A DNA stretch of 64,000 bases from the NCBI RefSeq assembly GCF_021183625.1, contig NZ_CP089214.1, forward strand, positions 2,170,001 through 2,234,000. The letters run 5' to 3'. Below, one piece after another: positions 31,117 through 34,523 of this stretch. Below the pieces are notes generated by a model, which was not told the origin of the DNA, made no database searches, and saw nothing but the letters and a program-made list of their open reading frames with translations. Within the stretch, counting starts at the first letter, position 1; every line of letters starts with the position of its first letter. A program made the translations under genes and the position numbers. This DNA comes from Nocardia asteroides (GTDB lineage: Bacteria > Actinomycetota > Actinomycetes > Mycobacteriales > Mycobacteriaceae).

Positions 31117-31569
31117 TCAGAGAATCGCGAAGGCCACCACGAGCCCGAGCGCGAAGTGCGCGGCGGCGACGACCAGCACCGCCGGGGTGTACGCCTCGGA
31201 GTGCAGCGCCGCGCCGATATCGATGCCGAGCGCCTTCTCGATCACCCGCACCGATACCACCTGCGCGATGATGCCGACCAGCCCGAAGATCAGCGAGGCG
31301 ATAAGCCCCTCCAGCAGCTTGCCGGACGCCGCGAAGATCGCGAGCACCACGATGAACGCCATGCTCAGCATGCCCGCCGCCGTCACGACGATGGCGTTCG
31401 GCTTGCCCTCCAGCACCAGCTGGCGCAGGCGCCCGGGGGTGGTGAGGTCGATGGCGTAGAAGCCGACGAGCATGAGCACCAGGCCGACGAGGGCGTAGAG
31501 CAGGATCGCGCCCACCCCTTCGCCGAGCGAACTCCAGTAGCCCGATTCGAGGGCGACAGCGGCGGTCAT
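31117..31569 (-). CDS. DUF350 (YjfL-like) membrane protein
   Basis: 150-aa membrane protein with four hydrophobic segments, the DUF350 layout (ILLYALVGLVLMLVGFYAIDLTTPG; LIASLIFGLVGIIAQVVSVRVIEKALG in sections). It lies 25 bp behind the ATP-grasp gene. In E. coli the homologue YjfL is encoded with YjfM (DUF1190) and YjfC (ATP-grasp), as seems to be the case here. Molecular function is unknown. Confidence 0.88.
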   Translation of the reverse strand: MTAAVALESGYWSSLGEGVGAILLYALVGLVLMLVGFYAIDLTTPGRLRQLVLEGKPNAIVVTAAGMLSMAFIVVLAIFAASGKLLEGLIASLIFGLVGIIAQVVSVRVIEKALGIDIGAALHSEAYTPAVLVVAAAHFALGLVVAFAIL

Positions 31570-31594
31570 CGTGGTCCTTCCGATGGATTGACGA

Positions 31595-32764
31595 TCAGTC
31601 GTCGGTGGGGATGCGGTGCGGGACGAAGGCGGAGCCGTCGTCGGTGATCAGGCCGGCGGTCTCGCGGATGCCGAGCCCGGCCGAGCTGTCGCCGACGATC
31701 CAGGCGCCGAGCACCGGCCGCATGTCGTCGAACTGCGGCAGCGGGTCGAGCAGCTGGTAGACGAAGCCCTCTTCGCCGTACATGCCGCCGGTCGCGGTCT
31801 CCATCCCGGCGCCGACGATGGTCATGTTCGCGCCCTCGCGGCCGAGCTTCGGCTTGCGGATGTACTCGGTGAGCTCGTTCGGCTGATCGAGGTAGGCGGG
31901 CAGCAGGTTCGGGTGGCCGGGGTACATCTCCCAGAGCACCGCGAGGATGGCCTTGTTGCTGAGCAGCGTCTTCCACAGCGGCTCGATCCACATGGTCTGC
32001 GGCAGGCTCGCGACGACCCGCTTGCCGAAGTCGTCGTCGAGCACCCACTCCCACGGGTAGAGCTTGAAGATCGCCTGGATCGGGTCCTCGGCCAGGTCGA
32101 CGAAGCGCTCCAGCTCGGTGTCGACGCCGACCTCCTCGATCGGCAGCCCGATGGTGTCGAAGCCCGCCTCGGCGGCGGTCTCCTGGATGTAGGCGGTGGT
32201 GACGCCGTCCTCGCCGGTCGGCTCGGCGCCGGACCAGCTGAAGTGCAGCTGGTCGCTGGGGAGGATGGCACGCAGCTCGCCCCAGCGCTCGACCAGCTTC
32301 TCGTGCAGCGAATTCCACTGGTCGTGGTCCGGGTACAGCGCGGTGAGCCAGTGCCACTGCAGGATCGCCGCTTCCAGCAGCGAGGTGGGGGTGTCGGCGT
32401 TGTACTCCAGCAGCTTCGCCGGGCGGCGGGCGTCGTAGCGCAGGTCGAAGCGGCCGTAGACGTGCGGGTCGGCGCGGCGCCACGACTCCGCGATCGGCTG
32501 CCAGCTCCACTCCGGCAGCCCGAAGTCGCGGTACCGCTCGGTCAGCACGACCTGCTCGACCGCCTTCAGGCACATGCTGTGCAGCAGTTCGACATCCGCC
32601 TCCAGGGCGAGGATCTCCGGCATGTCGAACTCGTAGTAGACCGATTCGTCCCAGTACGGCCGGGGCTTGCCCTGCGCGTCGCGGCCGGGGGTGCCGTAGA
32701 CCAGCCCCTGCTCCTCGACGATCTGCTGCCAGCCCTTCCGTGGTTCCACGCGGACCCGTCGCAC
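31595..32764 (-). CDS. Glutathionylspermidine-synthase-like ATP-grasp ligase (YgiC/YjfC type)
   Basis: 389-aa ATP-grasp enzyme of the glutathionylspermidine synthase C-terminal family, without an amidase domain. Recognisable motifs are RFDLRYDARRPAKLLEYNADTPTSLLEA (in sections, about 105-132), LPSDQLHFSW, LYPWEWVLDDDFG, IEPLWKTLLSNKAILAVLWEM and the C-terminal GMYGEEGFVYQLL. Family members form an amide bond between a carboxylate and an amine using ATP; the substrate of this stand-alone subgroup is not known. GTG 32764 has GGAGG 9 nt upstream and lies 2 nt after the DUF1190-like stop. Confidence 0.87.
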   Translation of the reverse strand: MRRVRVEPRKGWQQIVEEQGLVYGTPGRDAQGKPRPYWDESVYYEFDMPEILALEADVELLHSMCLKAVEQVVLTERYRDFGLPEWSWQPIAESWRRADPHVYGRFDLRYDARRPAKLLEYNADTPTSLLEAAILQWHWLTALYPDHDQWNSLHEKLVERWGELRAILPSDQLHFSWSGAEPTGEDGVTTAYIQETAAEAGFDTIGLPIEEVGVDTELERFVDLAEDPIQAIFKLYPWEWVLDDDFGKRVVASLPQTMWIEPLWKTLLSNKAILAVLWEMYPGHPNLLPAYLDQPNELTEYIRKPKLGREGANMTIVGAGMETATGGMYGEEGFVYQLLDPLPQFDDMRPVLGAWIVGDSSAGLGIRETAGLITDDGSAFVPHRIPTDD

Positions 32765-32766
32765 CG

Positions 32767-33747
32767 CTAGGAACCTCCGCCGATCTTGCTGCCGAGGCCG
32801 CCGCGCTGCACCGTGGTTCCGGTCTTGGTCTTGATCTCGGTGTTCTTCGGCTTCACCGTCGTCCCGCCGGTCGGCTTGCCGCCGATCGCGGTGGAGCCGC
32901 CGTAGTAGTAGCGGTACTGCGGCCAGCCCGCCAGCAGGACGACGCCCGCGGTGTCGCCGACGAAACCCGGGCGGCCGGTGCCGCAGTAGGTGTCCTCGAC
33001 GACGATCTCGTTGCCGTTCTGGTCGGTGGCGACGCAGGACGCGGTCACCGTCTCCGGGGCGGAGAGCGCCAGGTAGGCGAGGTAGCCGCCGCCGACCAGC
33101 GCGGCGACGCCGACCACGGCGGCGCCGCCGATGAGCACCCGGTTGCGGGAGCGCTTCTTCGCCGCGGCGGCCTCGGCGGCGGCGCGCTCGGCGTCGCGGG
33201 CCTGCTTGCGCGCCTTGTCCCTGGCGCGGGACTCGGCCACCGTCGGTGGGCGGGGCTGCGTCACCCCCGCCCGCTGCTGCTGAACGCGCCCCGCGCGCTT
33301 CCCGCTCTCGGGCGGAGTGCTTCCCGCAGGTGCGCCCGCTCCGTGCGCGCCGGGCAGCGAGCCCGGGGGCGGTTGGAAACCGCCCGCCTGCGGCTGGGCG
33401 CCGGGCCACGGAAAGGGGGGCGGGGCATGCTGCTCCGCCGCCGAAAACGGCTGCGTGCCAGGTTGCCCCGCGGCCGGGAACGGCTGCGTGCCGGGCTGCC
33501 CTGCCGCCGGGAACGGCTGTGTACCGGGCTGATCCGCGCCCGGCGCGGGGCGGGAATCCGGCTCTTCCGCGGACGGCTGCGGACCGGAAGCGCCGGTCGG
33601 CGCAGCGGATCCCGCGCCGGGCGCGGGCACGTTCGCCGCCGAACCCTCCTCGTAGACCGGGCCGGTGGCGGCGGCGGTCCCTTCCTCCCACTGCGGCCGG
33701 CTGCCGTCGTTCCGTTCGTCCCCCCGACGGGGTTCGTCTGTGCTCAC
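32767..33747 (-). CDS. DUF1190-like (YgiB/YjfM type) membrane-anchored protein
   Basis: 326 aa. The first 165 residues are Pro/Ala/Gln-rich and disordered, with three 11-residue repeats (GQPGTQPFPAA). An Ala/Arg/Lys-rich helix and one membrane segment follow (about 204-228). The extracytoplasmic part has two cysteines (238, 255), a Tyr/Gly region (QYRYYYGGSTAIGG) and the tail TVQRGGLGSKIGGGS. The last part resembles the TVTRGGFG tail of E. coli YgiB as I remember it. GTG 33747 is 4 nt after acyP. The family call is mine and rests on this tail and on the neighbouring ligase. Confidence 0.65.
   Translation of the reverse strand: MSTDEPRRGDERNDGSRPQWEEGTAAATGPVYEEGSAANVPAPGAGSAAPTGASGPQPSAEEPDSRPAPGADQPGTQPFPAAGQPGTQPFPAAGQPGTQPFSAAEQHAPPPFPWPGAQPQAGGFQPPPGSLPGAHGAGAPAGSTPPESGKRAGRVQQQRAGVTQPRPPTVAESRARDKARKQARDAERAAAEAAAAKKRSRNRVLIGGAAVVGVAALVGGGYLAYLALSAPETVTASCVATDQNGNEIVVEDTYCGTGRPGFVGDTAGVVLLAGWPQYRYYYGGSTAIGGKPTGGTTVKPKNTEIKTKTGTTVQRGGLGSKIGGGS
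33440..33538. repeat. Three 33-bp tandem repeats
   Basis: Units at 33440-33472, 33473-33505 and 33506-33538 encode the 11-residue repeat of the DUF1190-like protein. The copies differ by a few substitutions, so the array is older than the 18-bp duplication near 7.15 kb. Confidence 0.88.
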
Positions 33748-33751
33748 GCCG

Positions 33752-34030
33752 CTACCGCTCCTCGAATCCGGACAGATCGCCCCGCGCGGGCTCCCAGCTT
33801 TCCACAACAAGACCGACCCGGCCAGGCGTATCGGGCGAGCGGAGCAGGGCGAGCAATCGCTCGGCGGCCCGCCGCGGCCCCTCGGCGACCACGTGCACCC
33901 GCCCGTCGGCGGTGTTGGTGGCGTGCCCGGCGAGCCCGAGTTCCAGCGCGCGCGACCGCGTCCACCAGCGGAAACCGACGCCCTGCACCTGCCCGTGCAC
34001 CCAGGCGGAGAGCCGCTCGGCCTCGGCCAC
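33752..34030 (-). CDS. acyP: Acylphosphatase
   Basis: The 92-aa enzyme hydrolyses acyl phosphates. The catalytic Arg21 is in GQVQGVGFRWWT and Asn39 in GHATNTADGRVHVVAEG. GTG 34030 overlaps the last base of the osmC stop codon. In mycobacteria acyP also lies between smc and the OsmC gene, although here several genes separate it from smc. Confidence 0.93.
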   Translation of the reverse strand: MAEAERLSAWVHGQVQGVGFRWWTRSRALELGLAGHATNTADGRVHVVAEGPRRAAERLLALLRSPDTPGRVGLVVESWEPARGDLSGFEER

Positions 34031-34455
34031 TACAGCTCCACGTCGAAGGAGAGCGTCACCTTGCTCCCGGACTTCAGCGTCCGGCCGACGGTGCACACCT
34101 TGTCGACGGCGCGCTGCACGCTCACCAGCAGCCGCTCCCGCTCGACCTCGGAGAGCTCGCTGAGGTCGAGCTCGAAGACCTCGTCGATCTCGGGGTAGAC
34201 CTCGTTCTCCCGGTCCGGGTCGCCGGAGACCCGGATGGTGGCGTCGAAGTGCTCGCCGAGCTTGCGGGAGAGCGAGAAGTCGGCGCTCAGCCCGGAGCAC
34301 GCGGCGACCGCGATCTTCAGCAGCTCGCCGGGGGTGAAGGCCTCGGGGGTGCCCGCGGAGGCGATGCGCACCACCGCGTCCCGCTCGTTGCGGCCGGTGT
34401 AGGCGCGGGTGCCGGTGCGCTCCACCCGGAGCGCCGACGTGTTCTGCTCGGACAT
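34030..34455 (-). CDS. OsmC/Ohr-family peroxide-detoxifying protein
   Basis: 141-aa OsmC-fold protein that reduces organic hydroperoxides with two cysteines. Cys53 (IAVAACSGLSADF) and Cys121 (DKVCTVGRTLKSG) match the redox pair. ATG 34455 follows AGGA at 9 nt. It is first in a tight operon osmC-acyP-DUF1190-ATP-grasp-DUF350, and its stop overlaps acyP. No MarR-type OhrR gene is next to it. Confidence 0.9.
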   Translation of the reverse strand: MSEQNTSALRVERTGTRAYTGRNERDAVVRIASAGTPEAFTPGELLKIAVAACSGLSADFSLSRKLGEHFDATIRVSGDPDRENEVYPEIDEVFELDLSELSEVERERLLVSVQRAVDKVCTVGRTLKSGSKVTLSFDVEL

Positions 34456-34523
34456 GGTCACGATCCTGCCATTCGCCGGGACGGTCGTGCCGGGCAACAC
34501 CGCGCGGGGCGGGGGCATTCCGC

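Follow-up and report, generated by a model that had tools for sequence, protein, structure and literature searches.

Gene Organization of the Locus

The window analyzed here is a stretch of 64,000 nucleotides from Nocardia asteroides (NZ_CP089214.1, positions 2,170,001 to 2,234,000). The genome forms a single 6.99-Mb contig, and its best relatives are Nocardia. On the minus strand, a partner protein, a ligase and a DUF350 protein are encoded head to tail in this order, behind osmC and acyP. The features are listed below with their positions in the window.

34030-34458, osmC, from open frames and Pfam
33752-34033, acyP, from open frames and Pfam
32767..33747, minus strand, partner protein of 326 aa, with a long variable N-terminal part, one TM segment, a small two-Cys core and a flexible C-terminal tail
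33433..33531, minus strand, three 11-residue repeats of the partner, QPGTQPF[PS]AA[GE], read from the translation
33067..33138 (approximate limits), minus strand, predicted single TM segment of the partner, from sequence and the flank charges of relatives
32770..32805, minus strand, C-terminal tail of the partner, RGGLGSKIGGGS, proposed ligase substrate, from C-terminus-anchored conservation and shuffle tests
31595..32764, minus strand, predicted YgiC/YjfC-type ATP-grasp peptide-polyamine ligase of 389 aa with a GTG start; PF03738, 496 bits
31117..31569, minus strand, DUF350 (YjfL family) membrane protein of 150 aa; PF03994, 69.8 bits against a cut-off of 26

Open frames and Pfam bear out the gene arrangement given in a preliminary description of this DNA, and the two Pfam scores confirm the ATP-grasp ligase and DUF350 assignments made there. 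The GTG start of the ligase lies 2 bases past the stop of the partner. The osmC/acyP neighborhood is confined to Nocardia and close relatives. In all 80 of 80 related actinobacterial loci the partner is directly upstream of the ligase, its stop being at most 30 bases from the ligase start in 78 of them, and a DUF350 gene follows downstream in most actinobacterial relatives, indicating that the three-gene set exceeds chance.

Family and Active Site of the Ligase

Over its full length, the ligase shares ~41% identity with E. coli YgiC. Its structure matches to YgiC (7uk8, 300 bits) and YjfC (7uk6, 275 bits) exceed that to GspS (83 bits), placing it with the YgiC/YjfC peptide-spermidine ligases and agreeing with the earlier view of the module as the counterpart of E. 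coli ygiB-ygiC and yjfL-yjfM-yjfC. YjfC is annotated in NC_000913 as 'peptide--spermidine ligase'. According to PMC12568646, the activity of YgiC and YjfC was described by Pederick et al. 2023, and the family takes peptides in vitro.

For a comparison of residues, 183 related ligases were aligned with E. coli GspS, an enzyme with a fused amidase domain that is absent from the 389-aa frame of the window ligase. The equivalents of GspS R316, D318, E330, N332, K498, K533, R538, Q568 and R598, which we take to be catalytic residues, show little or no variation throughout. Their counterparts in the window ligase are R105, D107, E120, N122, K271, K304, R309, Q337 and R367, so the catalytic residues of an ATP-grasp amidoligase site are all present; family and catalytic residues are likewise shared with trypanothione synthetase. 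The equivalents of E391/E392, presumably polyamine-site residues, stay acidic (E/D). Several positions that we assume to contact the substrate glutathione are changed, S335 to T, T441 to L, T446 to W and D610 to A. With the catalytic residues kept and these contacts altered, the chemistry of the ligase should be retained, and its peptide site should be unlike that for glutathione. Actinobacteria generally use mycothiol, not glutathione. Glutathionylspermidine synthesis was discarded as the main function in view of the changed residues together with the missing amidase domain.

The Partner Protein and the DUF1190 Question

A single TM segment is predicted in the partner, in line with its earlier description as membrane-anchored, and the basic N-side flank of this segment (KKRSRNR) predicts a C terminus located outside. 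The long repeat-bearing N terminus is there as described, with QPGTQPFPAAG, QPGTQPFPAAG and QPGTQPFSAAE at about residues 73-105, but it is unconserved among relatives, in which the length preceding the TM segment ranges from ~70 to >380 residues (start codons uncurated). Similarly, the glycine-rich end had been read correctly, but its last residue is Ser, and relatives switch between G, S and A at this position. We infer that the 'glycine carboxylate' named as ligase substrate was adopted by analogy with glutathionylspermidine synthetase.

The label 'DUF1190-like' for 32767-33747 had to be abandoned. The partner belongs to no Pfam family by hmmscan, nor did a search of Pfam plus NCBIfam return a DUF1190 match. 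PF06693 was matched in 0 of 149 actinobacterial genomes, the best PF06693 scores among a few relatives of the partner had an E of 0.06, and where short partners of other phyla match DUF1190 weakly, the match falls at the tail end of that profile. When 34 actinobacterial partners were compared with 20 DUF1190-type proteins by hhalign, 18 columns only could be joined, consisting of RGG[F/L]G plus tail (probability 89%, E 2e-6); with tails removed, the cores alone reached a probability of 11%. The actinobacterial partner does carry the RGG[FYL]G tail feature of DUF1190. The four-Cys core of DUF1190 with its FMPxxxGYxxGR-like segment was not found, the core being instead a two-Cys segment that includes a YYYGG-like motif. 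DUF1190 homology was discarded on the lack of a Pfam match, the tail-only alignment and the low core probability, and as judged by the profile tests made, the partner shares only its C-terminal tail with DUF1190 (YgiB/YjfM). A structure model of the core displays a few strands at weak confidence (mean pLDDT 60) with a disordered tail (pLDDT 29-40), and a fold search with this weak core model matched no known fold.

The module belongs with YgiB-YgiC but is built around another type of partner protein. It resembles the E. coli YgiB-YgiC and YjfL-YjfM-YjfC systems in ligase type, in catalytic residues, in the DUF350 neighbor as found at yjfL, and in a partner tail with RGG[F/Y]G, which ends in GG there. 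The E. coli partners are DUF1190 lipoproteins, whereas in Nocardia the partner differs in its core, is anchored by a TM segment, has a long N-terminal part and ends in GS.

Co-occurrence of Ligase and Partner

Within the genus of the window, PF03738 is present in 52 of 59 genomes, and the partner profile detects its target in exactly the same 52, with one copy in the genome of the window. Across the wider phylum, the ligase was found in 16 of 246 genomes drawn, all 16 with a Gly/Ser-tailed ORF upstream. Of 20 further bacterial records, 18 have a partner adjacent to the ligase, and a tail-bearing ORF is close to the ligase, mostly directly upstream, in 75 of 80 viral-contig loci, where partners were picked by an RGG-like motif and Gly/Ser/Ala/Thr content and not by their last residues. 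No recognizable tail-bearing neighbor was seen in the available DNA of two bacterial (L109, L115) and five viral loci (L163, L173, L174, L176, L201); some of these contigs are truncated, and the ligase of L115 is divergent.

Six ligase-bearing genomes of the genus harbor extra partner-like proteins unlinked to the ligase (L219:3443-4042, L220:2728-3288, L221:2702-3496, L222:2491-3039, L223:2621-3262, L224:2065-2838). Some have diverged cores and lipoboxes, and all keep an RGGLG-like tail ending in GS, with the ends IQRGGLGRGGGGSGS, IQRGGLGRGGGSGS, ARGGLGKARPDSSGGGGSAGS, IQRGVLGQGRPDIGGVGS and IHRGGLG[YH]RDHSGS. By their tails, these paralogues look like additional substrates of the ligase.

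Conservation of the C-terminal Tail

Neighbors of the ligase come as the Nocardia type, as DUF1190 proteins (YgiB/YjfM) and as lipoproteins of Deinococcus and of phages. Their cores differ, and what nearly all have in common is an RGG[F/L]G motif and, after it, a variable Gly/Ser tail. E. coli YgiB ends in TRGGFG...SMGG and YjfM in SRGGYGRSSSARGHWGG, and the same plan is displayed by partners from Rhodobacter, Sulfitobacter, the Pseudomonas plasmid pQBR103, Deinococcus and Pseudarthrobacter. On the Pseudarthrobacter plasmid NZ_CP061722, the partner (L100:2501-2998) is annotated 'tRNA-dihydrouridine synthase', a name that looks wrong since the sequence is that of a short lipoprotein ending in SRGGFGGTAKGGSGS. 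Sphingomonas-type partners (L101, L147, L153) have a conserved ...FGSIHA end, not GG/GS, a naturally occurring alternative to the proposed acceptor.

Shuffling of each partner's own post-motif tail provides an expectation for these ends. GG or GS was observed in 69 of 74 bacterial partners versus 18.7 expected, and in 45 of 64 partners from viral contigs versus 14.0 expected. Among 126 partners made non-redundant by a 70% similarity cut, which corrects the counts for shared descent only in part, Gly occupies position -2 in 113 (90%), compared with 21-41% at positions -3 to -8; the null for position -2 had a mean of 50.6 and a maximum of 67 in 5,000 draws. This peak indicates that conservation is highest at the free C terminus, despite the variable distance to RGG[F/L]G. 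At the last position, 97% of the 126 have G, S or A. Ser is a frequent end of partners, Ala an occasional and Glu or Thr a rare one, and G, S and A interchange there among loci with ligases >85% identical, with 30 changes on the tree. These loci contain 10,156 ORFs with 80 or more codons; a strict form of the tail motif occurs in 145, each of which is the partner.

These distributions bear on the very unlikely case that tail and ligase are no physical partners at all, the partner acting as an envelope polyamine sensor or metal binder with an RGG-like or adhesive tail in a shared stress operon. RGG- and GS-rich tails are indeed of low complexity, and related operons include PspA, DUF350 and channels (PMC11237479). 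Such a scheme, however, fits poorly with conservation that centers on the final two residues instead of running through the tail, with the exact co-occurrence within the genus, and with the lack of the strict motif in every other ORF of these loci.

Retention of the last residues of the tail in soil bacteria, in E. coli and in phages alike suggests that the ligase modifies this tail. The preliminary description had offered, as speculation, that the C terminus could itself be the substrate; of the readings considered, this one is best supported by the comparative evidence. As an example of a candidate ligase substrate, we propose the tail peptide TTVQRGGLGSKIGGGS. The accessible literature contained no report of a modified tail, and we found no proposal there of the partner tail as ligase substrate; Iyer et al. 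2009, Pederick et al. 2023 and Sui et al. 2012 may contain one.

At one locus (L188), ligase and partner form a natural tandem in one frame with a single stop between them. AlphaFold2 was run on the read-through, with the stop read as Gly and without ATP, polyamine or a partner alignment. Under these settings the ligase is modeled confidently, while the partner is disordered and its tail (pLDDT 26-33) is not placed on the ligase, leaving docking unsupported. Docking is the essence of another, rather unlikely explanation, namely that the tail sits unmodified in the peptide site of the ligase to regulate or localize it, with small peptidyl-polyamines as the real products. The same conservation pattern would result from a docked C terminus, and the use of peptides in vitro by the family (PMC12568646) is compatible with docking. 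The unlinked paralogues, with their diverged cores and same tail, nevertheless fit several substrates better than one regulator, and export carries the partners away from the enzyme.

Export, Amine Supply and Proposed Mechanism

Among 188 partners, 95 have a lipobox and 80 a TM anchor, the latter with a basic N-side flank, so that the C termini of most should end outside the membrane. Since the partners are exported and the ligase is ATP-dependent and cytosolic, modification of the tail must precede or accompany export.

Genes of the Orn/Arg decarboxylase type, for AdoMet decarboxylase and for spermidine synthase are found within a 2.1-kb stretch of the genome (G000:C1:1912215-1914259), which makes synthesis of a spermidine-like polyamine probable. 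Outside this cluster at 1.91 Mb, the genome has another AdoMet decarboxylase-like gene (G000:C1:6605385-6605708, L128).

The tail might still be the substrate with the amine residing on another macromolecule, such as a protein lysine, a peptidoglycan diamino acid or an amino-lipid, which would make it a conjugated tag comparable to Pup or ubiquitin. A flexible tail with a C-terminal GG or GS does resemble protein tags. We consider this quite unlikely, as the genome has its own polyamine-synthesis genes and the residues equivalent to GspS E391/E392, which we take to line the polyamine site, are kept as E/D. The closest characterized relatives are moreover named for spermidine (NC_000913; PMC12568646).

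We hypothesize that the core of the system would consist of two proteins, ligase and partner, usually joined by DUF350, which we can only guess to be a membrane holder of the ligase. The cytosolic ATP-grasp ligase would activate the carboxylate at the partner C terminus as an acyl-phosphate and couple it to a primary amine on a polyamine, for which spermidine is the likeliest candidate. RGG[F/L]G plus the Gly/Ser tail ending in G-[G/S/A]-COOH would serve as recognition and acceptor element. The partner would then be exported and anchored in the membrane, by a TM anchor in Nocardia and by a lipid anchor in most others, and its free end would display a cationic polyamine within the envelope. Addition of a polyamine, most likely spermidine, to the partner C-terminal carboxylate before export is the best explanation of the whole, to which we assign a probability of roughly 0.6.

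Relation to Known Systems and Implications

In eukaryotes, spermidine is joined to the carboxylate of the C-terminal GG of SUMO, with a mass shift of 127.147 (PMC12270671). The reaction proposed here would be alike in placing spermidine on the carboxylate of a flexible C-terminal ...GG in an ATP-dependent manner. SUMO-spermidine is made by E1/E2 enzymes, whereas an ATP-grasp ligase would act here, and SUMO adopts a ubiquitin-like fold, whereas the partner is an envelope protein that is not ubiquitin-like. Ravi et al. 2024 (PMC11237479) describe PspA-associated operons in which a GspS-like ATP-grasp ligase occurs with DUF350 and DUF1190. The accessible text of that paper names DUF1190 or DUF4247 partners and contains no mention of the shared tail or of the actinobacterial partner type.

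The ligase is also encoded in 132 phage-collection records (H113-H134 among them), many of them Aeromonas and Acinetobacter phages of ~160-175 kb, where it is mostly annotated as glutathionylspermidine synthase or hypothetical. It is found as well on viral contigs of up to 530 kb (L133-L208). In most cases a lipoprotein-like partner with the shared tail accompanies it.

In the accessible literature, no function is settled for proteins of the DUF1190 and DUF350 families, and no physiological substrate is named for YgiC or YjfC. A C-terminal signal shared by otherwise differing partners points to a specific candidate substrate for these enzymes. We give even odds to the broader generalization that C-terminal polyamination of exported proteins is widespread in bacteria and phages, with RGG[F/L]G-(x)n-G-[G/S/A]-COOH as signal, a dedicated ligase and possibly several substrates per genome. 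If true, bacteria would possess a protein C-terminal polyamination parallel to the SUMO-spermidine of eukaryotes, and this would be relevant to the question of why 'glutathionylspermidine synthase' genes occur in many T4-like and very large phages.
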